A program made the position numbers and the translations under genes. Source: a virus. Taken from it: a stretch of 64,000 nucleotides of DNA. Positions 323 to 20,454 of the stretch are shown here, one piece after another (position 1 is the first letter of the stretch; each line of letters opens with the position of its first letter). The notes under the pieces were generated by a model, which was given only the letters and a program-made list of their open reading frames with translations, was not told where the DNA came from and did no database searches. The stretch is taken from IMG/VR virus record IMGVR_UViG_3300005528_000050, positions 1 to 64,000 of that record. The stretch is one strand, 5' to 3'.

Positions 323-476
323 CCTGAGTCACGGTTCAGGGTGAAAATTGTTTGGCATCCACTTTACAGATTAGTAGGTTTTTACTTTACAGATTGTAAG
401 AACGCCAACCAAAATTTTCCCGACGCAGCGGTTCTGAGATGTTACCGAATGGTAAGTTACTATTTGGTTAGTTGGC
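323..476 (+). repeat. Boundary module: stem-loop plus GTTTGGC element with inverted partner
   Basis: Stem-loop CCTGA...TCAGG at 323-340, then AAAATTGTTTGGC at 344-356, the inverted partner GCCAACCAAAATT at 404-417, and a weaker copy TTAGTTGGC at 468-476 just before the next promoter. The 16 bases of the stem-loop core recur at 8258-8273. Confidence 0.75.
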
Positions 477-494
477 AAGAAAAATAAAAATAAA

Positions 495-526
495 TTTGGT
501 AGAATAAAAAACTCGTTATATCTTTG
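495..526 (+). promoter_or_regulatory. Bacteroidetes-type promoter
   Basis: TTTGGTAGAATAA at -33 and TATCTTTG at -7; drives the gene starting at 548. Confidence 0.8.
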
Positions 527-547
527 TATCATAAAATCGACAAAATA

Positions 548-1096
548 ATGAAAACACTTGTAATTCATCCAAAAGACAAATCGACACAATTTTTAGATAT
601 TGTGTACGAACCTATACCGAATAAGACAATTATCACGGGTGGGGTAACAAAAGAAGAAGTTAGAAAACTTATCGACGCCCACGACAGAGTAATAATGTGT
701 GGACACGGAGCACCTATGGGATTGTTCTCGGTTGGACAATTTCCTGGTTCAAATGGTTTCATCATTGATGAAAGTATGGTGTACCTATTAAAAGAAAAAG
801 ACAATTCAATTTTTATTTGGTGTAACGCGGACAAATTCGTTAATCACTTTAAGTTGAAAGGTTTTTATTCGGGAATGTTTATTTCCGAAGTAGGGGAAGC
901 GTACTATTGTGGTTTACCTGGTACCGAACAAGAAGTAGTTGATGAAAGTAACTATGGTTTTTGTGAACTTTTATCGGAGTGTATTAACGAACCACAAGAT
1001 AGAATGTACGAAATCATTAAAAAGGAATATGGTAAGATTGCGGAAGAAAACCCAGTCGCACTATACAACCACAACCGCCTGTACTTGTCGATTTAA
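548..1096 (+). CDS. Possible clan CD (caspase/CHAT-like) cysteine peptidase-fold protein
   Basis: 182 aa starting MKTLVIHPKDKST. Two segments suggest a clan CD fold: a hydrophobic strand ending in His-Gly (VIMCGHG, about residues 54-60) and, about 50 residues later, a strand ending in Cys (IFIWCNADKF). In caspases, gingipains and CHAT proteins the catalytic His-Gly and Cys follow this order and spacing. A conserved-looking block GFYSGMFISEVGEA follows. The fold assignment is inference; the catalytic pair is seen but not proven. It is monocistronic with its own promoter and terminator, in a region of early-type genes, so a host-directed effector role is possible. Confidence 0.85.
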   Translation: MKTLVIHPKDKSTQFLDIVYEPIPNKTIITGGVTKEEVRKLIDAHDRVIMCGHGAPMGLFSVGQFPGSNGFIIDESMVYLLKEKDNSIFIWCNADKFVNHFKLKGFYSGMFISEVGEAYYCGLPGTEQEVVDESNYGFCELLSECINEPQDRMYEIIKKEYGKIAEENPVALYNHNRLYLSI

Positions 1097-1120
1097 TTGG
1101 TTTAACTCGGTTGCGGTGGA

Positions 1121-1149
1121 AAAGGGTAGCAGAAATGTTACCCTTTTTT
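1121..1149 (+). terminator. Rho-independent terminator
   Basis: AAGGGTAGC / GTTACCCTT stem with AGAAAT loop and a T-run. Confidence 0.8.
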
Positions 1150-1190
1150 GTTGCGTTTTAGTTTCACCTCACAGCACGTGCTGTATCCTA

Positions 1191-1290
1191 AATTTGGTTG
1201 GCACTGTATGACACTCAATAAAGGCGTATTACACTATATGTTTTGTTTAATCTTTCGGTCAAAACATTAAACAACACGCCAAACAATTTG
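1191..1290 (+). repeat. GTTTGGC-family inverted pair
   Basis: AATTTGGTTGGC at 1191-1202 and its inverted partner GCCAAACAATTTG at 1278-1290 enclose about 75 bases with no gene. Part of the boundary-element family. Confidence 0.65.
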
Positions 1291-1320
1291 TGGGATGGAG
1301 ACGACAGGTATGAAAAAAAA

Positions 1321-1352
1321 TTTGGATTATACTGAATATAGTTTTATATTTG
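1321..1352 (+). promoter_or_regulatory. Bacteroidetes-type promoter
   Basis: TTTGGATTATACT and TATATTTG at ideal spacing; drives the gene at 1373. Confidence 0.85.
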
Positions 1353-1372
1353 TATCGTAATACATAATTACT

Positions 1373-1534
1373 ATGAGTAAGAAATCAATCCCAACGGAAA
1401 TCAAAGTCGGTGTTTACTATTACATTGATGATGAAACTAAACAACCAATCTTTGATACCGATGAAATGAGAAATGAGTTTGAACAAAAACTTAAAGAAAT
1501 AGAAGATGAAACCGAATTTAACTATGAAGAATGA
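1373..1534 (+). CDS. Small hypothetical protein (53 aa), acidic
   Basis: Starts MSKKSIPTEIKVGVYYY about 20 nt behind a strong promoter and ends in an acidic helix (FEQKLKEIEDETEFNYEE). No family recognised. Its 3' end overlaps the next short gene by 11 nt, so the two are probably translated from one mRNA. Confidence 0.7.
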   Translation: MSKKSIPTEIKVGVYYYIDDETKQPIFDTDEMRNEFEQKLKEIEDETEFNYEE

Positions 1535-1664
1535 AACCCTTAATGGATTAAGTGTGAGACACGTCGCACAAATAGTCCGTAGGAAAATGTTACAGAAGTC
1601 GAAACCTTCGGCGAAGGCGTACAGACGAATAAAGTTTGGCAAAAAAGATTTGGTAAACGAATAA
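1524..1664 (+). CDS. Small basic hypothetical protein (46 aa)
   Basis: Starts MKNETLNGLSVRHVAQIVRR and is very rich in Lys and Arg, so nucleic-acid binding is conceivable but not shown. It overlaps the end of the preceding acidic 53-aa gene. The last codons contain a GTTTGGC copy (1634-1640) and the next promoter, so its C-terminus overlaps a boundary module. An acidic/basic pair could form a complex, but this is only inference. Confidence 0.55.
   Translation: MKNETLNGLSVRHVAQIVRRKMLQKSKPSAKAYRRIKFGKKDLVNE
1634..1640 (+). repeat. GTTTGGC element inside the 3' end of a short gene
   Basis: GTTTGGCAAAAAAG lies in the final codons of the 46-aa gene, nine bases before the -33 box of the next promoter. 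Confidence 0.55.
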
Positions 1665-1680
1665 AATTGTTATATATTTG
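1649..1680 (+). promoter_or_regulatory. Bacteroidetes-type promoter
   Basis: TTTGGTAAACGAATAA and TATATTTG, overlapping the end of the preceding gene. Confidence 0.8.
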
Positions 1681-1705
1681 TATAAACCAATAAATAATAA
1701 CGACT

Positions 1706-2113
1706 ATGTATCAAGATTTTGACAACCCACGGAGTTGGGACAACCTCGGAAAAATGGTGTGTTTTCACGGACGTTACGACCTTGGAGACAAACACGACTA
1801 CAACCACAATAACTACAATGGTTGGGAAGAAATGAAAAACGCAATCATCAAAGAAGAAGATGTTTGTGTTATCTTACCTCTTTACTTGTACGACCACTCG
1901 GGAATTACAATGAACACAAGTCCGTTCAGTTGTCGTTGGGATAGTGGACAAGTTGGTTGGTACTTTGTTTCAAAGAAGAAAGTCCGTGAAGAATATGGAG
2001 TAAAGAAAATTACCCAAAGTCTTATTGACAAAGTAACCGAAGTGTTGGAGGGTGAAGTAAAAACTTACGACATGTACCTCACGGGTGAATTGTACGCAGA
2101 AGAATACGAATAG
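1706..2113 (+). CDS. Conserved phage hypothetical protein (135 aa)
   Basis: Function unknown. The centre holds the signature seen from memory in many phage and mobile-element proteins: ILPLYLYDHSGITMNT then FSCRWDSGQVGW at about residues 56-90, preceded by FHGRYDLGDKH. The conserved Asp, His, Ser and Cys/Arg residues suggest a folded domain of its own, without a known active site. Monocistronic, strong promoter and terminator. Start chosen 25 nt after the -7 box. Confidence 0.9.
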   Translation: MYQDFDNPRSWDNLGKMVCFHGRYDLGDKHDYNHNNYNGWEEMKNAIIKEEDVCVILPLYLYDHSGITMNTSPFSCRWDSGQVGWYFVSKKKVREEYGVKKITQSLIDKVTEVLEGEVKTYDMYLTGELYAEEYE

Positions 2114-2136
2114 ATTTTGTTTGGTTAGGTGAAAAG

Positions 2137-2165
2137 TCCTCGGCGAAAGTCGGGGATTTTTTTTT
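2137..2165 (+). terminator. Rho-independent terminator
   Basis: TCCTCGGC-GAAA-GTCGGGGA followed by nine T. Confidence 0.85.
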
Positions 2166-2183
2166 ATACCAGAATTCGCCCAG

Positions 2184-2259
2184 CCCACGCCTGGTGGGGA
2201 TTTTGTTTGGCGGATAACCTATTATATTTAAGTGTTTTATGTGGTCAGCCAACCAAAAT
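2184..2259 (+). repeat. Boundary module: stem-loop, GTTTGGC element, inverted partner
   Basis: CCCAC-GCCTG-GTGGG stem-loop at 2184-2198 runs straight into GATTTTGTTTGGC (2199-2211); the inverted partner GCCAACCAAAAT is at 2248-2259. Confidence 0.75.
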
Positions 2260-2313
2260 TTTTACGACGCCGGGTGAAACAGTAGATGGTGTTATTGGAT
2301 ATTTTAAAATAAA

Positions 2314-2344
2314 TTTGGATATCATAAAATGAATTGTATATTTG
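2314..2344 (+). promoter_or_regulatory. Bacteroidetes-type promoter
   Basis: TTTGGATATCATAAAAT and TATATTTG. Nearly identical to the promoter at 2678-2708. The ATG follows only four bases after the -7 box, so the transcript should be leaderless. Confidence 0.85.
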
Positions 2345-2348
2345 TATT

Positions 2349-2654
2349 ATGAAAAACTATAACGACATATCATTGAATACCGATGAGGAAGTAATGAACT
2401 ACCTAAAAAAATCGGAAAAAGAAGGTAAAGTGTGTGACATCATTGAAACTGAAAATTATATTTCGGTTGATGTTGAATGGGCATACAACTTTGAAGGTCA
2501 CAAAGTGGAGAGGAGAAAATTTATCTATCTTCTTACTCGTTCTAACTTTCAATTTAACAAAACAATATCGCGTTATGTTAGAGAAAAAGACGAAATAAGA
2601 TTCAGAAGAATTGAAAAAGAGTTCAAACGAATATTCAGATTGACATCAATTTGA
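2349..2654 (+). CDS. Hypothetical protein (101 aa)
   Basis: No family recognised. Starts MKNYNDISLNTDEEVMNYL, has a strand-rich middle (YISVDVEWAYNFEGHKV) and a very basic C-terminus (RRIEKEFKRIFR). The start is set by the promoter: the earlier open frame begins inside the -7 box. The stop codon TGA lies inside a boundary element (ATTTGATTGGC). Confidence 0.8.
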   Translation: MKNYNDISLNTDEEVMNYLKKSEKEGKVCDIIETENYISVDVEWAYNFEGHKVERRKFIYLLTRSNFQFNKTISRYVREKDEIRFRRIEKEFKRIFRLTSI

Positions 2655-2659
2655 TTGGC
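2648..2659 (+). repeat. Boundary element variant overlapping a stop codon
   Basis: ATTTGATTGGC-type copy; the TGA inside it ends the preceding gene. Confidence 0.55.
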
Positions 2660-2677
2660 AAAATATCCTAAAAAAAA

Positions 2678-2708
2678 TTTGGATATCATAAAATAAGTTG
2701 TATATTTG
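2678..2708 (+). promoter_or_regulatory. Bacteroidetes-type promoter
   Basis: TTTGGATATCATAAAAT and TATATTTG; near-duplicate of the promoter at 2314. Confidence 0.85.
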
Positions 2709-2729
2709 TATTAATAAACTAATACAGAT

Positions 2730-2975
2730 ATGAAAATAAACGAAAAATTAATCGGAAAAAGAATTCGTCTCGTTTCAATGGAGAACGACCCTAACCCCGT
2801 TGAGGAAGGTTCAATGGGAACAATTTATCATGTTGGTCATGGTGTTATCAATGTCCGTTGGGATAGTGGTAGGACTCTTGGTGTAGTTGAGGGTGAAGAT
2901 GAATATGAAATCATTGACACTCCCGACACTTATTTACCACCCAACAATTTTCTTGTCTTTTCGGGAAATATCTGA
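2730..2975 (+). CDS. DUF4314-like protein (81 aa)
   Basis: Residues 5-62 match the DUF4314 pattern: IGKRIRLVSM, DPNPVEEGSMGTI, then VRWDSGRTLGVVEGEDEYEII. DUF4314 is a small beta-barrel-like domain common in phages and mobile elements of Firmicutes and Bacteroidetes; no biochemical role is known. The last 19 residues (PDTYLPPNN...) are extra. Monocistronic behind a strong promoter. Confidence 0.92.
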   Translation: MKINEKLIGKRIRLVSMENDPNPVEEGSMGTIYHVGHGVINVRWDSGRTLGVVEGEDEYEIIDTPDTYLPPNNFLVFSGNI

Positions 2976-2992
2976 GGAGATGGTGAACCGCC

Positions 2993-3005
2993 GATTTTGA
3001 TTGGC
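2993..3005 (+). repeat. Boundary element
   Basis: GATTTTGATTGGC between two genes, seven bases before the -33 region of the next promoter. Confidence 0.6.
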
Positions 3006-3012
3006 ACAATCG

Positions 3013-3045
3013 TTTGTATATTCCAAAAATTCATTTGTATATTTG
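3013..3045 (+). promoter_or_regulatory. Bacteroidetes-type promoter (weaker -33)
   Basis: TTTGTATATTCC at -33 and TATATTTG at -7, spacing two bases longer than usual. Confidence 0.65.
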
Positions 3046-3068
3046 TCCAATAATTAAAAAAACAAAAA

Positions 3069-3428
3069 ATGTTAATTAAACTCACTTATCAAGGTAAAGG
3101 AACCCCAACACTTGTCAATCTACAAAATGTCAAAAACATTTTTAGTATCTTGGATAAAAGAAACGACAAGATAGCAACGAAGATTGAATACATAGATGGT
3201 ACATATGTCAATGTTGAAGAAGACATTAAAACCATTTATGAAATTCAGTGGAAGATGATGAATGGAAGTTGTGATATGGACTTTGAAGTTCCATCGGTTG
3301 ATGAAATGATTAATAACTCATACTACGAAAATGGTGGTAATGGAGACCGCCATTGGAATGGTCAACGAACCAACCAACCTCGTAAAAGAGTTTACCGAGA
3401 CAACTACGATAATCAAAACAATTATTGA
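3069..3428 (+). CDS. Hypothetical protein (119 aa)
   Basis: Starts MLIKLTYQGKGTPTLVNLQNVKNIF, a beta-rich N-terminal half that looks like a small PH-like or SH3-like barrel, followed by a low-complexity hydrophilic tail rich in Asn, Arg and Tyr. The tail suggests a flexible C-terminus. Cotranscribed with the 46-aa membrane protein that starts two bases after its stop. Confidence 0.8.
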   Translation: MLIKLTYQGKGTPTLVNLQNVKNIFSILDKRNDKIATKIEYIDGTYVNVEEDIKTIYEIQWKMMNGSCDMDFEVPSVDEMINNSYYENGGNGDRHWNGQRTNQPRKRVYRDNYDNQNNY

Positions 3429-3429
3429 T

Positions 3430-3570
3430 ATGTTAAAGGAAATGTTTTCAACTTTCAAAGAAGTTTACCAAGAAGACCGAAAGGAATTTTGGGATGGAAT
3501 TTTGGGTGGCATTGTAATACTTATGTTTTTCCTATTGACAATGTTTGTTTTAATTCCTATATTTGGTTAA
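3430..3570 (+). CDS. Small single-span membrane protein (46 aa)
   Basis: Starts MLKEMFSTFKEVYQEDRKEF, an amphipathic charged helix, followed by one hydrophobic segment (about residues 24-44, GGIVILMFFLLTMFVLI). The short start at 3430 is preferred over an in-frame GTG/ATG at 3331 because it begins directly behind the upstream stop. Belongs to a set of micro-membrane proteins in this window; function unknown. Confidence 0.65.
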   Translation: MLKEMFSTFKEVYQEDRKEFWDGILGGIVILMFFLLTMFVLIPIFG

Positions 3571-3623
3571 AGTGTAATACACTTGATTTGTCGTTCATAG
3601 ATTAGTTTTATTTGGTTAAGGAA

Positions 3624-3649
3624 CCCTCACAGAAATGTGGGGGTTTTTT
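3624..3649 (+). terminator. Rho-independent terminator
   Basis: CCCTCACAGAAATGTGGGGG plus six T. The same terminator sequence recurs at 11226 and, one base pair shorter, at 4716 and 14741. Confidence 0.85.
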
Positions 3650-3688
3650 GTTTGCTAAAAAAATTCGTCGCCGGCAAATCCCGTGTTC

Positions 3689-3728
3689 AATTTAGTTTGG
3701 CGGGTGTATGACAGATGCCAACCAATTT
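3689..3728 (+). repeat. GTTTGGC element with close inverted partner
   Basis: AATTTAGTTTGGC at 3689-3701 and GCCAACCAATTT at 3717-3728, a near-perfect dyad with a 15-base loop. Confidence 0.7.
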
Positions 3729-3778
3729 CTGAGATGGTACGGTGAATTCTGGGGTCAGAAAAAAAAAATAAAGATTTA

Positions 3779-3810
3779 TTTGGATTATAATGAAAAGTGT
3801 ATTACATTTG
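3779..3810 (+). promoter_or_regulatory. Bacteroidetes-type promoter
   Basis: TTTGGATTATAAT and TACATTTG; drives the DUF932 gene. Confidence 0.85.
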
Positions 3811-3832
3811 TATCAAATTAAAAAACATCCAT

Positions 3833-4687
3833 ATGTCACAAGAAAATCGCACACAGCAAGTTCTCAACAAAGTCGGCCTAAATTGGACCGTAAGAGAAGA
3901 AAGTATCACTACAGAAAGTGGTATCATTGTTCCTAAGAGTAAAGCAATCATCCGTGAGGACACAAACACTGTTTTGTCTGTACATGGTGATGGTTACTTT
4001 CCTTATCAAAATCATCAGATGGTTGATTTACTAGACAAGGTATCTCAACAGGTTGGTTTACCAATTCACAAAGGTGGTTACTTTGGTGGGGGTGAGAAAG
4101 TATACCTTCAATTGAAATCAAATGATTTGAAATTGGGCAATGACAGAGTTGAGGGTTTCATCACTGGTGTGAATTCCTTCGATGGGTCAACTAGTTTGGC
4201 ATTCGGTCCAAGTAATATTACAATCAGTTGTCAGAATTCATTCTTCGCAGCGTTCCGTAACTTGAATGCGAAAATTCGTCACACCAAAAACATGGAGATG
4301 AGAATCGATGATATCTGTCGTGGTTTGGAGGGGGTACTCGTGGAAGAAAAAGAAATGTTCGAAGACATTAAGAAACTTTCTGAAACGAAGATGACCAAGA
4401 AACAAGAGGATTGGGTTACACGTACATTGTTCAATATCATGAAAGATGTTGATTTGAATAGTGACAAAGATGTGTCGACCGTGACTCGTAATCGTCTTTC
4501 TCGTTTCTACGTAGACCTTAATGGTGAAGTAAAAGAGAAAGGTGATAACCTTTGGGGATTGTTCAGTGGGGTTACTAAGTACACCACACATTCCTTAAGT
4601 AAAGGTGATAACTCTGAAAACAAGATGTTTGGAACCTATGGACAAAGGGAACGTCAAATTTTCAAAGAATTGGTTGAGTTGGTTTAA
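3833..4687 (+). CDS. DUF932-family phage/plasmid-like protein (284 aa)
   Basis: Matches the DUF932 family by its characteristic order: WTVREESI, a strand block ending RED..TVLSVHGDGYFPYQNHQMVDLLD, GGYFGGGEKVYLQLK, TGVNSFDGSTSLAFGPSN, ISCQNSF and RHT near residue 160, followed by a helical C-terminus. DUF932 proteins are frequent in phages and plasmids and are of unknown biochemical function; a role in host takeover or DNA metabolism has been guessed for some. Monocistronic. Start set by promoter; the upstream in-frame start lies within the -7 region. Confidence 0.92.
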   Translation: MSQENRTQQVLNKVGLNWTVREESITTESGIIVPKSKAIIREDTNTVLSVHGDGYFPYQNHQMVDLLDKVSQQVGLPIHKGGYFGGGEKVYLQLKSNDLKLGNDRVEGFITGVNSFDGSTSLAFGPSNITISCQNSFFAAFRNLNAKIRHTKNMEMRIDDICRGLEGVLVEEKEMFEDIKKLSETKMTKKQEDWVTRTLFNIMKDVDLNSDKDVSTVTRNRLSRFYVDLNGEVKEKGDNLWGLFSGVTKYTTHSLSKGDNSENKMFGTYGQRERQIFKELVELV

Positions 4688-4715
4688 GATTGGTTAGGTA
4701 CTCAATTAATAAGAA

Positions 4716-4739
4716 CCCCACAGAAATGTGGGGTTTTTT
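4716..4739 (+). terminator. Rho-independent terminator
   Basis: CCCCACAGAAATGTGGGG plus six T, followed by ATTGCTC as after several other terminators here. Confidence 0.85.
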
Positions 4740-4778
4740 ATTGCTCCAAAGTTGATGGTGAGCTACGCGCAAACAGTG

Positions 4779-4841
4779 AAAATTGTTTGGCAAACTCTAA
4801 ACCCAATAAAATCAATACTTTGGGTTCGAGCCAACCAAAAT
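4779..4841 (+). repeat. GTTTGGC inverted pair with nested dyad
   Basis: AAAATTGTTTGGC at 4779-4791 and GCCAACCAAAAT at 4830-4841; inside lies a second dyad, AACCCAA...TTGGGTT. The whole block is homologous to 7576-7636 and, more weakly, 12243-12304. Confidence 0.75.
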
Positions 4842-4868
4842 CGAGGGCTGCGCGCAACCAGGAGATGT

Positions 4869-5000
4869 TCATGTATCTTCCCAGAATCTAAATGGTTTCT
4901 CTTGATAATCTTCTTTTAGTTGTCTTCTTAACTCATAACAAAACAATATAATGACTAATACGAACTCAACTCCTAATGTATAAAGTATCCCTTCTATCAT
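4869..5000 (-). CDS. Possible antisense micro-membrane protein (43 aa)
   Basis: Open frame on the strand opposite to all neighbours, in a 430-base gap. It starts MIEGILYTLGVEFVLVIILF, one membrane span, then a charged tail (YELRRQLKEDYQEKP). The span-plus-basic-tail design matches several micro-membrane proteins in the right half of the window. No clear promoter is seen upstream on this strand, so confidence is limited. Confidence 0.45.
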   Translation of the reverse strand: MIEGILYTLGVEFVLVIILFCYELRRQLKEDYQEKPFRFWEDT

Positions 5001-5042
5001 AATAATAAGTATCCAAGATGGTGATGATGCAGCACAGGATAA

Positions 5043-5054
5043 CTTTTGTTTGGC
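5043..5054 (+). repeat. Boundary element
   Basis: CTTTTGTTTGGC, 18 bases before the -33 box of the next promoter. Confidence 0.6.
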
Positions 5055-5072
5055 AAGAAATATAAAAATAAA

Positions 5073-5104
5073 TTTGGATTATACAAAATATAGATTTATA
5101 TTTG
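5073..5104 (+). promoter_or_regulatory. Bacteroidetes-type promoter
   Basis: TTTGGATTATACA and TATATTTG. Confidence 0.85.
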
Positions 5105-5122
5105 TGTTCTAAATTAATTTAT

Positions 5123-5344
5123 ATGGTTTTAGAAAAACTAACTATCGGTAATGTCTACTATGTAAAACACATAGGGAATGTTAAGTATTTGGGTAAGTGG
5201 AAAATGGATTACTATGTAGAGGGTGAAAAAGGTATTAAAGGAATGAATACCTTTAAGTTGTTGTCGTTCAGAGGTAATCAACTTCTTTCATTAACCAAAA
5301 AAGAAATTGTGAATGACCTATTAGATATTGTACGAAACGAATGA
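5123..5344 (+). CDS. Hypothetical protein (73 aa)
   Basis: Starts MVLEKLTIGNVYYVKHIGNVKYLGKW; alternating aromatic/basic pattern typical of a small all-beta barrel, with a short C-terminal helix (KKEIVNDLLDIVRNE). No family recognised. Own promoter and terminator. The ATG 18 nt after the -7 box is chosen over an earlier GTG-type start. Confidence 0.8.
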   Translation: MVLEKLTIGNVYYVKHIGNVKYLGKWKMDYYVEGEKGIKGMNTFKLLSFRGNQLLSLTKKEIVNDLLDIVRNE

Positions 5345-5347
5345 CGA

Positions 5348-5370
5348 AATCACCTTCACGGGTGATTTTT
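5348..5370 (+). terminator. Terminator that merges with a boundary element
   Basis: AATCACC-TTCAC-GGGTGATT followed by TTT; its T-run is at the same time the start of the element GATTTTTGTTTGGC. Confidence 0.75.
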
Positions 5371-5377
5371 GTTTGGC
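5364..5377 (+). repeat. Boundary element
   Basis: GATTTTTGTTTGGC directly continuing a terminator stem. Confidence 0.65.
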
Positions 5378-5395
5378 GAAAAAAATAAAAAAAAA

Positions 5396-5427
5396 ATTCA
5401 CTTATACAAAAAATAGATTTATATTTG
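5396..5427 (+). promoter_or_regulatory. Promoter with intact -7 and weak -33
   Basis: TATATTTG at 5420-5427; the -33 region reads TTCACTTATACA instead of TTTGGATTATA. It serves the four-gene unit 5448-7486. Confidence 0.7.
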
Positions 5428-5447
5428 TACCATAAAACAATCTAAAA

Positions 5448-5726
5448 ATGAAAAACAAGAAAGTAACTCCGAAGAAAAAACACACACTCTTAAAGGGTGA
5501 GGGTGTTAACCAGCACACTCTGTATGGTGATTTCATTGTTGATGAAACACAAACAGATTTCGCAGAAGTTGAAGTTAGAAAGGATAGTGTATTAAGACAC
5601 GAACAACCCGATGGAAGTTTCTCAAACGAACACAAACCACTCAAAGTTGAGCAAGGTGATTGGGTTATGGGAAAACAAGTTGAGTACAATCCGTTTGAAG
5701 GTACTATCACTCAAATTTGGGATTAA
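5448..5726 (+). CDS. Hypothetical protein (92 aa)
   Basis: Starts with a basic segment (MKNKKVTPKKKHTL), then a beta-rich body (LYGDFIVDETQTDFAEVEVRK). No family recognised. First gene of a four-gene unit (5448-7486); the next start lies two bases after its stop. Confidence 0.8.
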   Translation: MKNKKVTPKKKHTLLKGEGVNQHTLYGDFIVDETQTDFAEVEVRKDSVLRHEQPDGSFSNEHKPLKVEQGDWVMGKQVEYNPFEGTITQIWD

Positions 5727-5728
5727 CT

Positions 5729-14740: not shown

Positions 14741-14764
14741 CCCCACAGAAATGTGGGGTTTTTT
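14741..14764 (+). terminator. Rho-independent terminator
   Basis: CCCCACAGAAATGTGGGG plus T-run, same as at 4716. Confidence 0.85.
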
Positions 14765-14803
14765 ATTAAAAACCTCGTACACATATATTATGGGATGGAC
14801 ATT

Positions 14804-14816
14804 GATTTAGGTTGGC
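14804..14816 (+). repeat. Boundary element, 63-nt module copy 2
   Basis: GATTTAGGTTGGC; module copy 2 spans 14805-14867. Confidence 0.75.
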
Positions 14817-14834
14817 AACAAAGTTGAAAATAAA

Positions 14835-14866
14835 TTTGGTATAAAAGAAAAATTGTTATATCTTTG
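14835..14866 (+). promoter_or_regulatory. Bacteroidetes-type promoter (module copy 2)
   Basis: TTTGGTATAAAAG and TATCTTTG. Confidence 0.85.
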
Positions 14867-14886
14867 TATTACTAAAACATTTTATT

Positions 14887-15198
14887 ATGTACAAGAAAAA
14901 AATTCAAGACCTACAAGAGGAAATAATCAAAAAAATTAAAAACAAATGTTCGACCATTATTGGTGAGAACCAACAAATCACATTTAGAAATGTGTTTGGA
15001 GTTTGGGTTACCGAAGGTATGTACGAAGATGATGGTAGAGTTCAATACGCGGCGTATGGAATATTACCTGATGGTACTGTGATGTCGGAAAGTTTTGGTG
15101 ATAGTATAGAACTCTCGTTAGTTGAATTGGACATATATGAACTCGCACACATCATAGACATCCTTGAGTCGGATGACTTTACCGTCGAGGACATTTAG
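14887..15198 (+). CDS. Hypothetical protein (103 aa)
   Basis: N-terminal charged helix (MYKKKIQDLQEEIIKKIK), then strands with VFGVWVTEGMYEDDGRV and GILPDGTVMSESFGDS, then an acidic C-terminal helix. No family recognised. Its stop TAG is inside a boundary element that starts the next module. Confidence 0.82.
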   Translation: MYKKKIQDLQEEIIKKIKNKCSTIIGENQQITFRNVFGVWVTEGMYEDDGRVQYAAYGILPDGTVMSESFGDSIELSLVELDIYELAHIIDILESDDFTVEDI

Positions 15199-15204
15199 TT
15201 TGGC
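15193..15204 (+). repeat. Boundary element containing a stop codon, 63-nt module copy 3
   Basis: ATTTAGTTTGGC; TAG ends the preceding gene; module copy 3 spans 15193-15255. Confidence 0.75.
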
Positions 15205-15222
15205 AACAAAGTTGAAAATAAA

Positions 15223-15254
15223 TTTGGTATAAAAGAAAAATTGTTATATCTTTG
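15223..15254 (+). promoter_or_regulatory. Bacteroidetes-type promoter (module copy 3)
   Basis: TTTGGTATAAAAG and TATCTTTG; the ATG follows four bases later, so the mRNA should be leaderless. Confidence 0.85.
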
Positions 15255-15258
15255 TATT

Positions 15259-15561
15259 ATGAAAAAAGAAAAAGTAATCCACTCGGTATCATCTCACTTG
15301 AGAGATAAGTCATATGAGATGAGAATTATTCAAAATGAGAATAATGTCAAATTGAAAATGACCTACGAAGCGTACAACGCACAAGAAAGGTTTACAGGTG
15401 AACAATTCATCAATGGTAAATGGGAACACACATTTGGAATGTTGGATTTGGGTGTTCTACCTGATAAGTCAATCTACGTGTGTAGTGAAGGAAAAAGAGA
15501 AGATAAGGCCGAAAAGTTATTTGGTCTTGGTACAAAATTGTTTAACATCTTAAATCAATAA
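15259..15561 (+). CDS. Hypothetical protein (100 aa)
   Basis: Starts MKKEKVIHSVSSHLRDKSYEM. Beta-rich middle (NVKLKMTYEAYNAQERFTG), then a C-terminal helix. No family recognised. Leaderless start immediately behind the -7 box. The next gene begins four bases after its stop. Confidence 0.8.
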   Translation: MKKEKVIHSVSSHLRDKSYEMRIIQNENNVKLKMTYEAYNAQERFTGEQFINGKWEHTFGMLDLGVLPDKSIYVCSEGKREDKAEKLFGLGTKLFNILNQ

Positions 15562-15565
15562 TACA

Positions 15566-16111
15566 ATGGGATTAGACATGTATCTCAAGAAGAAAACCTA
15601 TGTGAAAAATTGGTCACATATGGAACCCGAACAACTTCACAAGGTGACAGTTAAGAAGGGTGGGAAAGTAGTTAAGGAAATTCAACCCGACAGAATTTCA
15701 TCCATCGAGGAACAGGTGGCGTATTGGAGAAAGGACAACCACATCCACGCATGGTTTGTAAACAATGTACAGGACGGTGAGGACGATTGTGGTGAGTATT
15801 ATGTAGACCGCGAAAAACTCAAAGAGTTGGTGGATACCTGTGGGAAAGTTAGAGCAACCCTGAAAAATTCTCCGACGAAGAAGGTTCAGGTGAAAGTTGG
15901 TTGGCAAGGTGGTAAGGAATTGTATGAGGACATCGATGTCTACACCGACACCGAACTTGCGGAAGAACTACTACCAACCCAAGCAGGTTTCTTTTTCGGG
16001 GGAACTGAATATGATGAGTGGTATCTAAAAGGTTTAGAAGATACCATCAAACAAATCACTCCCTTATTAGAGGAAAAGGAAGGAGATTTCTACTACCAAT
16101 CATCCTGGTAA
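15566..16111 (+). CDS. Conserved phage hypothetical protein, MGLDMYL type (181 aa)
   Basis: Starts MGLDMYLKKKTYVKNW and shows EEQVAYWRKDNHIHAWFVNNVQ, DDCGEYYVDREKL, QAGFFFGGTEYDEWYLKGL and a C-terminal YYQSSW. This is one of the most widespread uncharacterised phage families. The conserved YWRK.N.IH and FFFG..YDE blocks may form a nucleotide or metal site (inference). Cotranscribed with the preceding gene. Confidence 0.92.
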   Translation: MGLDMYLKKKTYVKNWSHMEPEQLHKVTVKKGGKVVKEIQPDRISSIEEQVAYWRKDNHIHAWFVNNVQDGEDDCGEYYVDREKLKELVDTCGKVRATLKNSPTKKVQVKVGWQGGKELYEDIDVYTDTELAEELLPTQAGFFFGGTEYDEWYLKGLEDTIKQITPLLEEKEGDFYYQSSW

Positions 16112-16119
16112 AAAAATAA

Positions 16120-16155
16120 AAAGAGGATATCGTTTGGTAAAATGGTATCCTCTTT
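16120..16155 (+). promoter_or_regulatory. Inverted repeat wrapped around a promoter's -33 box
   Basis: AAAGAGGATA at 16120-16129 pairs with TATCCTCTTT at 16146-16155; the loop contains TTTGG and the 3' arm abuts the -7 box. It could be a terminator for the upstream unit, an operator, or both. Confidence 0.6.
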
Positions 16156-16164
16156 ATACCTTTG
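16133..16164 (+). promoter_or_regulatory. Bacteroidetes-type promoter embedded in a hairpin
   Basis: TTTGGTAAAATGG and TACCTTTG; serves the 16195-17865 unit. Confidence 0.75.
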
Positions 16165-16194
16165 TATTAATGAACAGCTTAAAATAGATAGATT

Positions 16195-16809
16195 ATGCCG
16201 AACTGGTGTCAAAACTCAATAACAATAACAGGTACTGAAGAGCAGATTGGTTTGCTCACTCGTATCCTTAATGATGTTCCAAAGTCCGAACCTGAAAAGT
16301 GTATCGTGTTTGAGTCCTTAATCGGTCGTGAACCTGAAATTAGTAAAGAAGAATACGAACAAGGTGGATGGTATAATGCAAACACCAGTTGGTATGGTAC
16401 CAAATGGGATGTGTCATACGCCGACTGCAACTTCACTTTTGAGAAGGATGTTATCTATATGTCACCTGATACGGCGTGGTCACCACCAATAAACTTTGGT
16501 GTTGTATTACACAAGATGTATGGTGTGGATGTGGAGTTGTTCTACTCGGAGGGTGGAAGTGATTTCTGTGGCAAAACAACCATTAATCAAAACGGAGTGG
16601 TTGAGGATGATTATGGTTATCTCGAAGGTAACTATCGTTTTGACGAAGAATACTTTTGGGAATCCCTTTTCCAAAATGAGATGGAATATGCAATCGATAA
16701 CGAAACTAGTGTTGATGACTTCGTTGCACAATTCCCTTATGTGGATACGGAAGACGCAAAAGAAATCCGTAGAATATACGAAGAAGAACTAAAGGAAAAA
16801 GTAAAATAA
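16195..16809 (+). CDS. YubB/Api92-like ferredoxin-fold protein (204 aa)
   Basis: The N-terminus MPNWCQNSITITGTEEQI is the hallmark of the DUF1281/Api92-like family (plasmid YubB, phage APSE Api92), followed by FESLIG..PEI, NTSWYGTKWDV, FEKDVIYMSPDTAWSPPINF and a VELFYSEGGSDFCG strand pair. The core is a ferredoxin-like fold of unknown function. The acidic C-terminus (EEYFWESLF onward) is an addition. First gene of a four-gene run. Confidence 0.92.
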   Translation: MPNWCQNSITITGTEEQIGLLTRILNDVPKSEPEKCIVFESLIGREPEISKEEYEQGGWYNANTSWYGTKWDVSYADCNFTFEKDVIYMSPDTAWSPPINFGVVLHKMYGVDVELFYSEGGSDFCGKTTINQNGVVEDDYGYLEGNYRFDEEYFWESLFQNEMEYAIDNETSVDDFVAQFPYVDTEDAKEIRRIYEEELKEKVK

Positions 16810-16815
16810 ATTCAT

Positions 16816-17076
16816 ATGGAAGATTTGAAAATATTATCGACAGCAGAACCTCAAGAAGAATTAACCTACCAAGAATGGGTAGACGCATTGAGAACTCAAG
16901 AGAATGTCATTGTTTCATCCAAATACCACGCAAGAACCATCGAGCAACGGATTAAAGTTGATGAAGCAATTCAAATGAAAAGAGAAATGGAAAACTCTGA
17001 AGTAAAATTTTCCGACGGGACAGCCGAACCCCGAATTTTGTTTGGCATGTTAAAATCTGTATTAAACTTCTTTTAA
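16816..17076 (+). CDS. Hypothetical protein with a boundary element in its 3' end (86 aa)
   Basis: Helical, starts MEDLKILSTAEPQEELTYQEW. The last 14 residues (ILFGMLKSVLNFF) are encoded by an AATTTTGTTTGGC element and its downstream sequence, so the present C-terminus may have arisen by fusion at this element. No family recognised. Seven bases behind the preceding gene, six before the next. Confidence 0.75.
   Translation: MEDLKILSTAEPQEELTYQEWVDALRTQENVIVSSKYHARTIEQRIKVDEAIQMKREMENSEVKFSDGTAEPRILFGMLKSVLNFF
17034..17046 (+). repeat. Boundary element inside a gene
   Basis: AATTTTGTTTGGC read through in frame as NILFG-like codons near the end of the 86-aa gene; 30 bases before its stop. Confidence 0.6.
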
Positions 17077-17081
17077 AGATT

Positions 17082-17561
17082 ATGGGACGAGTAAATAAAA
17101 CAATCGAGGGTGTCTTCATTGACATCGTAGGGTCAAAGAGTGAACTGAGTTCATATGACCAATTCATCAACCACGGTGATGGTAAGAAATATTCTAAGGA
17201 GCTTAAAGAGCTCACTGGTTTATATAAGAACTTAATCACTGAGAGTAAATTAACATTCGAAAAACTAGCATCACTCGAGGAGATTATAATCCAAATGAGA
17301 ATTCGTGAGGACCTCAGTGATATCAAGTTGACTCAAGTTCGTGAGTACATCTACGCAAGGACTCCTTTCTACCGTAAGGATAAGAAGTCAAAAGATGTCC
17401 GTGTTATTGTCGACAAGATTGAGTTTCACCCTGAGGAGGATTTGGAGATTTTGTCTGGCGACAAGGAGTTCATGACCAAAGCCAAGATGAAGTTAGCTCA
17501 GGCTATGGACCTCGAGATTGAGGAAAACATCCGAGTATTCAAATCAACATTTAAAAAGTAG
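17082..17561 (+). CDS. Hypothetical protein (159 aa)
   Basis: Starts MGRVNKTIEGVFIDIVGSKSEL; mostly helical and charged, with a likely coiled coil around residues 40-75 and a segment YARTPFYRKDKKSKDVRVIVD. No family recognised. Third gene of the 16195-17865 run; four bases separate its stop from the next start. Confidence 0.83.
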   Translation: MGRVNKTIEGVFIDIVGSKSELSSYDQFINHGDGKKYSKELKELTGLYKNLITESKLTFEKLASLEEIIIQMRIREDLSDIKLTQVREYIYARTPFYRKDKKSKDVRVIVDKIEFHPEEDLEILSGDKEFMTKAKMKLAQAMDLEIEENIRVFKSTFKK

Positions 17562-17565
17562 AGGT

Positions 17566-17865
17566 ATGAAAACAGAAACAATTTCAACAGGTATTGGACT
17601 CTCAATTTACAAAGGTGATTGGGATGGAGCACAGTGGACACTTACTGGTTTCCCTAAAAAAGAAGCAATTGGTCACGACTACGACTCTGCCTATGACTTC
17701 GAGGACTGTGTCAAGAGAAACATCAATTGTAGTGGAATCGATTTTGACAGTGAGTATTGTCAGTTCTACGCATACGCAAAGACCAAAGCTCGTTTGGTGA
17801 GTTTTGCAAACCAAATCAAGAAACACTTTGAGAAAGCAAAGCAACTGAAGGAGGAGATGTACTGA
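17566..17865 (+). CDS. Hypothetical protein (99 aa)
   Basis: Starts MKTETISTGIGLSIYKGDWDGAQWTLTGFPKKEAIG, with DFEDCVKRNINCSGIDFDSEYCQFYAYAKT and a C-terminal charged helix. Acidic and Cys-containing. Preceded by GAGGT, one of the few Shine-Dalgarno-like sequences here, which supports the ATG at 17566. Confidence 0.82.
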   Translation: MKTETISTGIGLSIYKGDWDGAQWTLTGFPKKEAIGHDYDSAYDFEDCVKRNINCSGIDFDSEYCQFYAYAKTKARLVSFANQIKKHFEKAKQLKEEMY

Positions 17866-17877
17866 ATTTAGATTGGC
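17865..17877 (+). repeat. Boundary element
   Basis: AATTTAGATTGGC directly after the preceding stop codon. Confidence 0.6.
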
Positions 17878-17880
17878 AAA

Positions 17881-17910
17881 AATATTCTAGAAAAATTTGG
17901 AATATTCTAG
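17881..17910 (+). promoter_or_regulatory. Direct repeat around a -33 box (operator candidate)
   Basis: AATATTCTAG occurs at 17881 and again at 17901, exactly two helical turns apart, on either side of the TTTGG -33 box. Confidence 0.45.
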
Positions 17911-17927
17911 TAAATGTATTAATTTTG
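17896..17927 (+). promoter_or_regulatory. Bacteroidetes-type promoter
   Basis: TTTGGAATATTCTAG and TAATTTTG; serves 17957-19830. Confidence 0.7.
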
Positions 17928-17956
17928 AATATAGAACATTAAAAATCAATAGGTGT

Positions 17957-18559
17957 ATGACAAACAAAATCAAATTAGGAACTGAGGTCGTAGTATCCGA
18001 CCCTTGTTACACAATCCCAACCTGGTGTCAGGGAATTGTTAGTGGTGTTAAACCCGGTATGTATGACACCTATGTTAAGCGTCACGACTGTGGTGATTGG
18101 GGTATCCGAAGTTCAATGATACTTGTCATACACGAGGACCATAAAGACGACAAACTGGTTTGGAAAGATTATCCTGCAACCATCGGTGTCGACTCAGGTC
18201 AGTGTGGAATCTTCTCCAAAGAATCTTACCGTGACGACTCTATTACAGAACGAATCGGTTTGGGAGATGGTGACATTTCATTCTTTGGTGTAACACCTTG
18301 GAAAGAAATGACCGAGGCCCGTGAGGAAGAACAAGGTGAAAAATGGTACATCAGTATGTGTTCTCGTACCTTGGGTGATAGTCGATACGGTGTGTATGAC
18401 GAGGGAGTAGTTTCTTCATCTGGTTTTGGTGATGGTTCTTACACATTATATGTTGCAAAGAAAAGAGGAAAGATTATTGCAATGTGTGTTGACTTCGCGG
18501 TGGAGGAAGACGAAGTAATTGATTTTGAATTTTTTCGTGATATCCATATTGAGAAGTAA
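17957..18559 (+). CDS. DUF4241-like protein (200 aa)
   Basis: Shows VVVSDPCYTIPTWCQG near the N-terminus and IGVDSGQCGIFS near residue 90, followed by a C-terminal block GDGSYTLYVAKKRGKIIAMCVDF, matching the DUF4241 pattern (DPC.. and VDSG..G). Function unknown. First gene of the six-gene run to 19830. Start placed 29 nt after the -7 box; the longer frame would begin inside it. Confidence 0.85.
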   Translation: MTNKIKLGTEVVVSDPCYTIPTWCQGIVSGVKPGMYDTYVKRHDCGDWGIRSSMILVIHEDHKDDKLVWKDYPATIGVDSGQCGIFSKESYRDDSITERIGLGDGDISFFGVTPWKEMTEAREEEQGEKWYISMCSRTLGDSRYGVYDEGVVSSSGFGDGSYTLYVAKKRGKIIAMCVDFAVEEDEVIDFEFFRDIHIEK

Positions 18560-18583
18560 TAAATTTTATTTAGATTTGGAGTT

Positions 18584-18874
18584 ATGAAAAAAATATTATT
18601 TATATCAGCACTTGGATTAGTTGGTTGTGGAACCAATCGAACATATATCCAACACGGGGACAAGGCATTAGTAAGTGGACACAAAGTTTACTTTATCGAT
18701 TGCAACATAACCCGAGAAGTAATTAAACCCCAATGGGATAAAGGTTCATATGGTGATACCATGAAGGTATACTTAGTGGATACACTGACATTTATGAATA
18801 TGTGTAGAAAAGCATCACCATGTGGATGTTCACCAGCAGGAACAACCGCAAATAAAACTGTAACAAAAACTTAG
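18584..18874 (+). CDS. Small lipoprotein (96 aa)
   Basis: Signal sequence MKKILFISALGLVGC with lipobox LVGC, so the mature protein would start at Cys 15 and be anchored in the membrane. The mature part ends in a Cys/Gly/Pro-rich motif (CRKASPCGCSPAG) that could form disulfides or bind metal. No family recognised. It may alter the host surface. Confidence 0.82.
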   Translation: MKKILFISALGLVGCGTNRTYIQHGDKALVSGHKVYFIDCNITREVIKPQWDKGSYGDTMKVYLVDTLTFMNMCRKASPCGCSPAGTTANKTVTKT

Positions 18875-18878
18875 TATT

Positions 18879-19340
18879 ATGTTCAATACACAGAAACCTC
18901 AAGAACCGATTCACATATTCACCCCATCTCAGTGGTTGAATATTGGTTGGCTGGCCATGGTACCAGCAACTTACTTCGTACACCCATATGCATGTGCATT
19001 GGCGGTAGTCATCTATATCTACAAATATTTCGAAGTAGATTGTTGGAGGTATGAATTCTATGATGACTGTGTAATTGAACGAAAAGGGGTCTTCAGTGTG
19101 ACTCGAGAATCTGTGAACTATTTCAGGATTAAATCTGTAATGGTCGACGAACCATTTTGGATGAGATTACTTGGACTGTCTGTTGTTCGAGTTATTACTT
19201 CAGAGCAATTTAAACAGCAACTAATATTTCAAGCCGTACCACACGGTGAAGGTATTCAAGCGTTTTTACAGCACAACGCAAGAGTGGAGAGACAAAATAT
19301 GGGAATTAGGGATTTTGATGTATTCAATACTCACCTGTAG
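18879..19340 (+). CDS. Membrane protein with bacterial PH-like domain (153 aa)
   Basis: Two membrane segments at residues 20-55 (WLNIGWLAMVPATYFVHPYACALAVVIYIY) are followed by a bPH2/YdbS-like domain: YEFYDDCVIERKGVFSVTRESVNYFRIKSVMVDEPFWMRLLG..VRVIT. This order is typical of DUF304/YdbS-type proteins, which are rare in phages. Four bases behind the lipoprotein gene; both act at the envelope. Confidence 0.85.
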   Translation: MFNTQKPQEPIHIFTPSQWLNIGWLAMVPATYFVHPYACALAVVIYIYKYFEVDCWRYEFYDDCVIERKGVFSVTRESVNYFRIKSVMVDEPFWMRLLGLSVVRVITSEQFKQQLIFQAVPHGEGIQAFLQHNARVERQNMGIRDFDVFNTHL

Positions 19341-19354
19341 CAATATTTAAAGTC

Positions 19355-19513
19355 ATGATAGTAGTAGAACCACGGATTCAGGAACAGTTCATGAGGATAG
19401 CAATGGCTAGACTTAATAAGAAATATTGTTTTAAACCTCAAAGGTTAGCAATGGCGGCCAAGATGTTTTCACAATATTTGCAACGTTTGGAAGAAAGGGG
19501 GAAGAGTAAATGA
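19355..19513 (+). CDS. Small basic hypothetical protein (52 aa)
   Basis: Starts MIVVEPRIQEQFMRIAMARLN, strongly helical and basic (NKKYCFKPQRLAM, QRLEERGKSK). Its TGA overlaps the next ATG (ATGA), which supports both genes. Too short for most gene callers. Function unknown. Confidence 0.65.
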   Translation: MIVVEPRIQEQFMRIAMARLNKKYCFKPQRLAMAAKMFSQYLQRLEERGKSK

Positions 19514-19830
19514 AACTCTTCATCAGGGACAAGGTATACTTCACGGACCCTACCACAGGTGAAATAATAGAAGACACCATTACCGACGTTAATGACAACG
19601 TAGTGATGGGAAAGAAATTCAACTTGACTGATTTATATTGGAAGGGTGAGTTAAACGTATATAGGTTAGAGTGTCACATATGTGGATTCAGTATACCAGC
19701 ACCTCTATCGCAATTTCAGGTAGATGGAATAAAAGGTAAGCAGCAATTATTACCATCCACATGTGGTGTATGTTTAGAAGAGTCACGGTACCCTGATAAC
19801 CCTGAGGAGGGAATCATACTGTGGATTTAG
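19510..19830 (+). CDS. Putative zinc-binding hypothetical protein (106 aa)
   Basis: Two CxxC pairs, CHIC near residue 54 and CGVC near residue 85, are spaced to bind one zinc ion. The N-terminal half is beta-rich (VYFTDPTTGEIIEDTITDV). Translationally coupled to the 52-aa gene. Its TAG stop is part of a boundary element. Confidence 0.8.
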   Translation: MKLFIRDKVYFTDPTTGEIIEDTITDVNDNVVMGKKFNLTDLYWKGELNVYRLECHICGFSIPAPLSQFQVDGIKGKQQLLPSTCGVCLEESRYPDNPEEGIILWI

Positions 19831-19836
19831 TTTGGC
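19824..19836 (+). repeat. Boundary element containing a stop codon
   Basis: GATTTAGTTTGGC; TAG ends the preceding gene. Confidence 0.7.
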
Positions 19837-19866
19837 ATTAGTTCTTTGAAAGATTTTTTTATAGGA

Positions 19867-19898
19867 TTTGGTTTTTAGGATTTTCTTGTGTATATTTT
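19867..19898 (+). promoter_or_regulatory. Atypical promoter
   Basis: TTTGG at 19867 with TATATTTTAT about 24 bases later instead of TAnnTTTG; precedes the basic Lys/Ala-rich gene. Confidence 0.45.
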
Positions 19899-19919
19899 AT
19901 ATATCAAAATCAATATATT

Positions 19920-20189
19920 ATGGCAACAAAGAAGTCCACAACTAAAAAACCCGCCAGCAAACCAGCGGCGAAACCAGCTCCAGCCCCCAAAAAGGGTGGG
20001 AAGAAAGCAGTAGCAGCTCCGGCTATGAAAACAACCGTAAGTACTTACGTACCTGTTTCACACCACATCTACTATGATGGTTTCTCTTACCGTGTACGTG
20101 CTAGCGTTAACGGAACCCGTTACTCTCAGAACTTCTCCTCCAAGAAGAAAGCTTTCGAGTTCCGTAAGAGTATCTTGAGTAATATGTAA
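19920..20189 (+). CDS. Histone-like Lys/Ala/Pro-rich protein with AP2-like DNA-binding domain (89 aa)
   Basis: Residues 1-36 are low complexity, Lys/Ala/Pro-rich as in histone H1-like or AlgP-type tails. Residues 47-85 (HIYYDGFSYRVRASVNGTRYSQNFSS, then KKKAFEFRK) look like a three-stranded AP2/arm-type DNA-binding domain. It may coat or bind phage or host DNA. Codon use in the tail is GC-richer than neighbours. Monocistronic with strong terminator. Confidence 0.85.
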   Translation: MATKKSTTKKPASKPAAKPAPAPKKGGKKAVAAPAMKTTVSTYVPVSHHIYYDGFSYRVRASVNGTRYSQNFSSKKKAFEFRKSILSNM

Positions 20190-20213
20190 TAGACGACTCA
20201 AGTCTCTTAACCA

Positions 20214-20248
20214 AATCCTGTGATTAACGTCACGGGATTTTTTTTTTA
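20214..20248 (+). terminator. Rho-independent terminator
   Basis: AATCCTGTGA-TTAACG-TCACGGGATT with a long T-run. Confidence 0.88.
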
Positions 20249-20281
20249 ATGAGAATCCTGACGACGGGACCTGAGATGGTC

Positions 20282-20454
20282 AATTTAGTTTGGCGGAAAG
20301 GTTGTTTAGACAATTGATGTTGTAACAATAAATCCACCGATTTAGTTTGGCGGAATCAGAATCCTCAGAATCGTCCGACGGTACCGATTTTGTTTGGCAC
20401 AAACTAACTAACACTTGTTAGTTCAGGGACCTGAGGAGGTCGATTTAGTTTGGC
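20282..20454 (+). repeat. Tandem array of four GTTTGGC elements without genes
   Basis: Copies at 20282-20294, 20339-20351, 20386-20398 and 20442-20454, spaced 57, 47 and 56 bases. Two follow GACC...GGTC hairpins; one follows CGGTACCG. Between copies 3 and 4 lies a CTAAC...GTTAG dyad. No reading frame of note in the array. Confidence 0.8.

Follow-up and report, generated by a model that had tools for sequence, protein, structure and literature searches.

The left part of the window, a 64,000-nt stretch of the IMG/VR virus record IMGVR_UViG_3300005528_000050 (86,966 bp in full), carries an array of small genes, most of whose boundaries are marked by a short asymmetric element with the core GTTTGGC. 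In the window, GTTTGGC was found 30 times against 3.9 expected from shuffles, and GATTTWGTTTGGC with at most two mismatches 43 times against 5.2. The full record holds 25 forward and five reverse copies of GTTTGGC, and the exact 13-mer occurs there nine times, always forward, between 2.2 and 20.5 kb. Matching RAWWTWGNYTGGC gave 27 forward and seven reverse sites in the window, all of them at 344-20454 and none in the other 43.5 kb. An earlier reading made from the DNA letters only (the sequence-only reading) had counted about 32 forward copies and no intergenic copy in the remaining 43 kb; the count was about right and the confinement was borne out.

The longest record identical to the window (G006, 288,260 bp; 100% identity over the window's first 24 kb) shows the whole array, which begins about 4 kb further left than the window start. 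All 46 matches to RAWWTWGNTTGGC in this record (33 forward, 13 reverse) lie in a 24-kb stretch at 53.0-77.2 kb in array orientation. Equally, in a 310-kb relative (G013, 310,691 bp; IMG/VR 3300042545_001134) all 37 matches (29 + 8) fall within 18 kb, at 41.7-59.7 kb, and four scrambled controls of RAWWTWGNTTGGC gave 0-3 matches per strand. The whole-genome scan proposed in the sequence-only reading places the element at one locus of a genome of about 300 kb; the inverted partners, the phasing and the lineage-specific cores described below had been missed. Records from other metagenome sets (G002, G003, G004, G006 and G007) matched the window over 17.9-24 kb with zero differences, and the phage of the window is widespread and uniform.

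Related arrays were collected by a search with the array's DUF932 protein (PF06067), which yielded 67 loci; the presence of DUF932 in most arrays is by construction, as the arrays were located through this protein. The window lineage is called A, and lineage B is 89% identical to it. The features of the array in the window are as follows.

1-20454, forward: tagged gene-cassette array, right-hand 20 kb (the longer identical record shows its start about 4 kb to the left).
344-416, forward: inverted pair, forward copy 344-356, spacer 47 nt, reverse copy 404-416.
1190-1290, unstranded: inverted pair, GGTTGGC at 1196 and reverse GTTTGGC at 1278; its 75-nt spacer is the longest in the window.
1634-1640, forward: single core GTTTGGC.
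2199-2260, forward: inverted pair, spacer 36 nt, forward copy 2199-2211, reverse copy 2248-2260.
2653-2659, forward: single core GATTGGC; the cassette to its left is absent in lineage B, its right end at the core and its left end not.
2993-3005, forward: single site.
3689-3729, forward: inverted pair, spacer 15 nt, reverse copy at 3717.
4779-4842, forward: inverted pair, spacer 38 nt, reverse copy at 4830.
5048-5377, forward: cassette from GTTTGGC 5048 to GTTTGGC 5371, present in lineage A and absent in B.
7576-7637, forward: inverted pair, spacer 36 nt, reverse copy at 7625.
7734-8291, forward: cassette from GTTTGGC 7734 to GATTGGC 8285, absent in lineage B.
9117-9129, forward: single site.
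9615-9627, forward: site upstream of a ParB-like (PHROG) gene.
10659-10671, forward: single site.
11294-11323, forward: inverted pair with the shortest spacer in the window (4 nt), reverse copy at 11311.
12243-12305, forward: inverted pair, spacer 37 nt, reverse copy at 12293; spacer inverted in lineage B.
13100-13106, forward: single core with a promoter directly behind.
13549-13561, forward: site providing, with its TAG, the stop codon of the left gene; no promoter seen behind.
14047-14059, forward: site overlapping a stop codon, with a promoter behind.
14804-15204, forward: cassette from GGTTGGC 14810 to GTTTGGC 15198, absent in lineage B.
17034-17046, forward: site lying within the 3' end of a gene, with no promoter visible behind.
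17865-17877, forward: single site; in lineage B the right side is conserved and the left differs.
19824-19836, forward: site overlapping a stop codon; in lineage B the right side is conserved, and the left flank and base N differ.
20282-20454, forward: four sites in tandem (20282, 20339, 20386, 20442) with three units of 57, 47 and 56 bp between them, none holding a gene.

A consensus drawn from 242 sites in seven sequences (162 after removal of similar left flanks) reads RAWWTWG-N-TTGGC-A, preceded by a G+C-rich stretch of about 25 nt, the left arm. The second core base, N, is free (T 52%, G 27%, A 18%, C 3%), and GGTTGGC and GATTGGC are counted as sites. CCTGA and TCAGG words are frequent in the left arm at variable positions. 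The 12 nt that precede the A/T run had a G+C content of 0.43-0.60 in each of the 14 core/lineage sets tested, against 0.30-0.39 for the locus; in the A/T run it was 0.04-0.18. According to the sequence-only reading, copies stand nearly always between a terminator and the next promoter. This is often so, but sites also overlap stop codons (13549, 14047, 15192, 19824), lack a promoter, stand in tandem or lie within genes. Three strict copies are intragenic (7151, 8523, 18939), as are some looser GNTTGGC matches; a fourth strict copy in a gene, at 17447, is probably a coding coincidence.

Promoters were called by a simple regular expression for a pattern with -33 and -7 boxes that we take to be the Bacteroidetes promoter. 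A core on either strand lies within 250 nt upstream of 160 of the 183 pattern matches in eight arrays, compared with 20-46% for random positions. In 62 of 70 single sites the GGC end stood 31-33, 41-44, 52-55 or 64 nt from the -7 box, and in the other eight 95-130 nt from it. When measured from the TTGGC end at 139 promoters of six arrays, 58 distances fell at 30-34 nt (14), 40-45 nt (38), 51-55 nt (5) and 62-66 nt (1), and none at 35-39, 46-50 or 56-61 nt. Over seven sequences, every TTGGC located 28-69 nt upstream of a -7 box was in phase (89/89, with a chance of 0.43 per site), namely 19/19 in A, 13/13 in B, 14/14 in C, 10/10 in D, 6/6 in E and, from partial loci, 10/10 in L104 and 17/17 in L105; lineage F had no TTGGC in this range (0/0). 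Of 174 control promoters in G006 and G013, located outside the arrays or on the opposite strand, one had a phased match. Spacing by helical turns was seen only in these GTTTGGC lineages, A-E, L104 and L105. Since the distances are multiples of a DNA turn, they suggest a protein bound to double-stranded DNA next to RNA polymerase, and a protein-binding site, one of the functions suggested in the sequence-only reading, is supported by this phasing.

The same reading had all copies following the direction of transcription. This did not hold, as seven strict reverse copies (404, 2248, 3717, 4830, 7625, 11311, 12293) and the reverse GTTTGGC at 1278 were found. Each of them faces a forward copy. Equally frequent copies on both strands had been named in that reading as an outcome that would refute it, and this is half borne out: the element occurs on both strands, with the reverse copies standing as ordered partners. 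In 54 cases an inverted partner stands 4-77 nt behind a forward site, with spacers clustering at 4, 15, 25, 36, 46 and 76 nt. When periods of 5-20 were scanned over 50 non-redundant spacers, the best was 10.5 (R 0.69, reached by 0 of 20000 jittered sets). By lineage, R was 0.76-0.91 in A, B, C, D, F and L105, and 0.87-0.88 in L110 (5 pairs) and L119. A long hairpin formed by the outer flanks of the pairs was considered and set aside as weak (z 2.0, reached by 2 of 200 shuffles). Many pair spacers contain TGTATGACA or TGTATTACA words, e.g. window 1203-1277 and 3702-3716, and GTATTAC is enriched in L110, L116, L118, L127, L129, L131 and L132 (17-31 copies against 1.0-3.2 expected).

The same layout was found with cores other than GTTTGGC: GTGGGGC (L108), GTCTGGA (L109), CTGTGGC (L110), TACTGGG (L116-L119), TACCGGG (L129), GTCTAGT (L131), GACTGGC (L127) and GTTTCGC (L123). 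Of 20 arrays, 19 hold their own core at a density of 6-32 copies per 10 kb, and no foreign core exceeds 2.3. Confinement to one 30-kb stretch was seen here too (20/20 in G017 and 31/31 in G021); in G020 all 20 matches to TTACCGGGAT lie within 14 kb, and the bare 7-mer TACCGGG adds 19 scattered matches. Tens of sites that change in concert suggest a trans-acting reader.

Gene order and content also change at the element. Among neighbour pairs with both orthologues present, the pair was broken in 92 of 234 comparisons with a site in between and in 16 of 199 without; these comparisons overlap, and operon ends alone account for part of the excess. Among 85 indels of at least 35 bp in six alignments, 17 had both ends at a core (about 0.7 expected) and 18 one end, with A/B, A/C and B/C sharing events. 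The expectation in the sequence-only reading that gene content changes at the element is thus confirmed as an enrichment, not as an exclusive rule. Lineages A and B differ by site-bounded cassettes, e.g. window 5048-5371, 7734-8285 and 14810-15198; in B the left flank of 7734 is fused to the right flank of 8285, with the switch within the core. Base N is identical in four clear cases with the left gene conserved and different in four A/B cases with the right side conserved, which indicates that N goes with the left side. Between C and E a 105-aa gene is 99% identical at the amino-acid level and the next gene 54%, and the DNA similarity starts at the core.

Close strains show such events at finer scale. 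Between L117 and L119 (core TACTGGG), which are about 96% identical in aligned segments, one unit (37 nt + core) has been lost exactly between two cores in direct orientation. The spacer between inverted cores measures 82 nt in L117 and 7 nt in L119, with conserved flanks, and a unit of some 53 bp between cores stands in opposite orientations. Inversion of a 37-nt spacer also distinguishes lineage B from A. Near-identical lineage A records, in the part compared, differ in having two or three copies of a 72-bp unit, by a 69-bp deletion at such sites and by a few substitutions; the 72-bp tandem unit of L028/L040, left of the window, contains a reverse site. Whole-gene indels at L117 12560-12830 and L119 4700-5070 apparently lie between other direct repeats (ACACTAAAAAA, TAAGACA), and these seem to be a second route of gene gain or loss.

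From these data we consider it probable that the element is a protein-binding site specific to the lineage, one that marks transcription units and also forms the cassette boundary. It would be an asymmetric site of about 40 bp in which a left arm of about 25 bp, rich in G+C, is followed by an A/T run and the lineage core (GN-TTGGC), and would tag most transcription-unit boundaries in one 18-24-kb small-gene array of a jumbo phage. The double-stranded element would be bound by a trans-acting protein that is probably encoded by the phage and matched to the core. Because of the promoter phasing, a DNA-binding regulator is the most economical function for the core; single sites at helical-turn distances from RNA polymerase would most likely regulate, and probably activate, from a position resembling what we take to be class I, a likeness that lies in the spacing and extends to the GTTTGGC lineages A-E, L104 and L105. 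Inverted pairs may hold two protein molecules facing each other. The element would also be a recombination joint because one core is repeated tens of times, so that cassettes and gene-less units may be gained, lost, replaced or inverted at the core and the array may act as an exchange platform between same-core phages. For the recombination itself, repeat-driven phage recombination or template switching is preferred over a dedicated recombinase.

A number of observations weigh against this proposal. Promoter-phased sites are nearly absent in lineage F and in the other-core lineages, and some sites, e.g. 13549 and 17034, have no promoter behind them. In A-F, twelve TTGGC matches stand 12-17 nt ahead of a -7 box, nearer than the range counted and mostly out of phase; the site's own TTTGG has probably been taken for a -33 box there. 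Pair phasing is weak in E (R 0.28), L104 (0.30), L129 (0.21), L131 (0.37) and L109 (0.42), with 0.21-0.67 in other paired lineages, and L114 lacks GTTTGGC although its array is related. Neither end lay at a core in 50 of the 85 indels, the both-end count was 0/15 for L122/L132, and four of seven L117/L119 indels lie away from cores, some of them at other short direct repeats. Clear joints are a minority: out of 13 alignments with the left gene conserved and the right different, four stop clearly after GNTTGGC (by eye), two (one event, C 11011) have the left arm replaced and seven are ambiguous, too diverged or without a site, and in five of 25 right-conserved alignments (four A/B, one C/E) the similarity clearly begins at the core, the others being diverged, cut by the region edge or running through the site. 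A plain operator does not explain why the left arm stays with the upstream gene, and at forward 2184, 2981 and 13077 and reverse 4859 the left arm and T run are themselves terminator-like. All compared records are metagenome assemblies and possibly incomplete. Finally, no core-binding protein was identified; Pfam searches of the ten genes left of the array and of 30 of the 54 proteins of 70-450 aa common to five genomes gave no DNA-binding family over the cut-off, and a hint of DNA binding came from sigma-70 region 2, WYL and a CARF-associated helix-turn-helix domain, each matched weakly and below the cut-off.

The exact joins and the travelling of the left arm with the upstream gene would be explained by dedicated site-specific recombination with an integron-like logic, in which a lineage-specific recombinase cuts GN/TTGGC and excises, inserts and inverts cassettes of promoter, genes and left arm, the promoter phasing being secondary. 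Joins within the core, with left arm and N following the left gene in eight clear A/B/C cases, are consistent with it, as are the gene-less 47-57-bp units, the exact excision between direct cores, spacer replacement and unit inversion in close strains, and the inverted spacer in B; the concerted core change of each lineage would fit a matched enzyme. Nevertheless, it does not predict the promoter phasing, the majority of indels lie elsewhere than at cores, and segments of 4-77 bp are short for enzymatic inversion. Searches for recombinase families gave nothing convincing: tyrosine recombinase PF00589 matched in 0 of 26 records, serine recombinase PF00239 in 0 of 13, PF01797 in 0 of 8, and PF01548 in 2 of 9, both below the cut-off and, as proteins, one frame weak (0.0075) and the other without a match. 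We regard a dedicated recombinase, which overlaps the regulator-and-joint proposal as a special case of it, as possible but rather unlikely.

Clusters of integron-type attC sites without an integrase are reported in virulent phages (PMC9892861), and they share with the present array gene cassettes mostly in one orientation, short-core joints and gene-less minimal units. The core here is GNTTGGC and not G/TTRRRY, however, it varies by lineage, and many cassettes carry promoters. The left arm showed no covariation at fixed positions and no fixed hairpin geometry, and it folds no better than GC-matched array DNA (z -0.44 against -0.37), so an attC-like hairpin in the left arm was rejected; inverted pairs could fold. 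The integron tyrosine integrase belongs to PF00589, without a match in the 26 records, although attC clusters also occur without it; shufflon-type inversion likewise relies on a tyrosine recombinase that these records did not yield.

A bolder variant makes the core a barcode of the exchange platform: a matched recombinase or guide-directed factor would couple to RNA polymerase and cut and join cassettes, and only phages of the same barcode would trade genes. We think this unlikely.

Closest in role are the promoter-early-stem-loop cassettes (PeSLs) of T4-type phages, reportedly described by Arbiol in 2010 and Comeau in 2014. PeSLs are repeated intergenic regulatory regions where genes shuffle (PMC4503421, PMC3950731). 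Here too small genes are shuffled at a repeated regulatory region, at many boundaries in the order terminator, element, promoter. Terminator-like hairpins precede five sites and are made by the left arm at four, without fixed-position covariation. Homologous recombination that shuffles a conserved promoter-terminator region, with no special factor involved, is, however, at odds with a conserved part that is a short asymmetric core with helical phasing and inverted pairs, confined to one locus and respelled in concert between lineages. A gp25-type baseplate protein scored over the cut-off and a T4 gp19 match below it; since kinship with T4 rests on one family over the cut-off, we hold a PeSL system proper to be quite unlikely. 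The best reading is an element PeSL-like in role and not attC. In the haloarchaeal virus HGTV-1, a TATA-like box with an inverted repeat motif stands before ORFs in one part of the genome (PMC3950731). That motif is also repeated, promoter-linked and suggested for regulation and shuffling; it differs in having the promoter box inside the motif, and the passage describing it is silent on phasing, breakpoints and lineage-specific cores.

Stoperators, the repressor sites of temperate cluster A mycobacteriophages, are described as asymmetric 13-bp sites, tens per genome, in one main orientation, with a motif that varies between lineages with the repressor (PMC9283540, PMC6550527). The element shares the asymmetry, size, copy number, main orientation and lineage-specific motif. 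Stoperators are spread genome-wide, whereas the element is confined to a single locus, forms ordered inverted pairs, is phased upstream of promoters and serves as a shuffling joint; no integrase was found in the 26 records. Stoperator-like sites are thus distinctly improbable.

For termination, which the sequence-only reading had also proposed, we found no support as a main role. Scanned for terminators, window 1-20000 yielded 31 matches where shuffles gave 12.9, and five forward matches (1112, 7507, 9521, 10587, 12178) stand separately before a site; at a few sites a terminator role may apply. An element acting as RNA, be it terminator, processing site or hairpin, is very unlikely, for although inverted pairs could fold, sites follow stop codons and four of them are terminator-like, it runs counter to the helical phasing, the separate hairpins before five sites and left-arm folding no better than the control.

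The 272-aa gene at window 20461-21279, which evolves fast (23-53% identity), lies next to the end of the array in lineages A, B, D and E. It was rejected as a recombinase candidate, with no Pfam family and one weak PHROG match of unknown function; it aligned with two homologues only, and no homologue was seen beside the lineage C array.

These arrays bear on how large phages gain and lose many small genes, since their exchange joints can be read directly. The helical relation of the joints to promoters can be measured, and related phages spell them in nine ways that are nearly exclusive. It becomes testable which factor reads the core and whether a shared core decides the partners of gene exchange, and the layout offers a motif-based route to such gene arrays in huge phages. 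An open-literature search found no description of arrays of this kind, which leaves their absence in print unproven. Named phages gave no close DNA match, and the bacterial genomes searched no relative of the DUF932 protein. A scan of bacterial genomes for the site-promoter pattern gave zero matches and carries little weight, its -33/-7 spacing having been three bases shorter than in the viral scan. The best helicase matches were to Bacteroides phages (36% identity), which, together with the presumed promoter type, suggests a Bacteroidetes host.

Some genes of the array deserve mention. The DUF932 protein (window 3833-4684) has distant relatives (<60% identity) in actinobacterial and Stenotrophomonas phages. 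The genes at 13577-14053 and 11423-12193 matched over the Pfam cut-off to a SprT-like metallopeptidase and Gene product 88, respectively. A 134-aa array protein (5717-6133) is 99-100% identical in A-C and 92-93% in F, where its operon neighbours are 44-67% identical.

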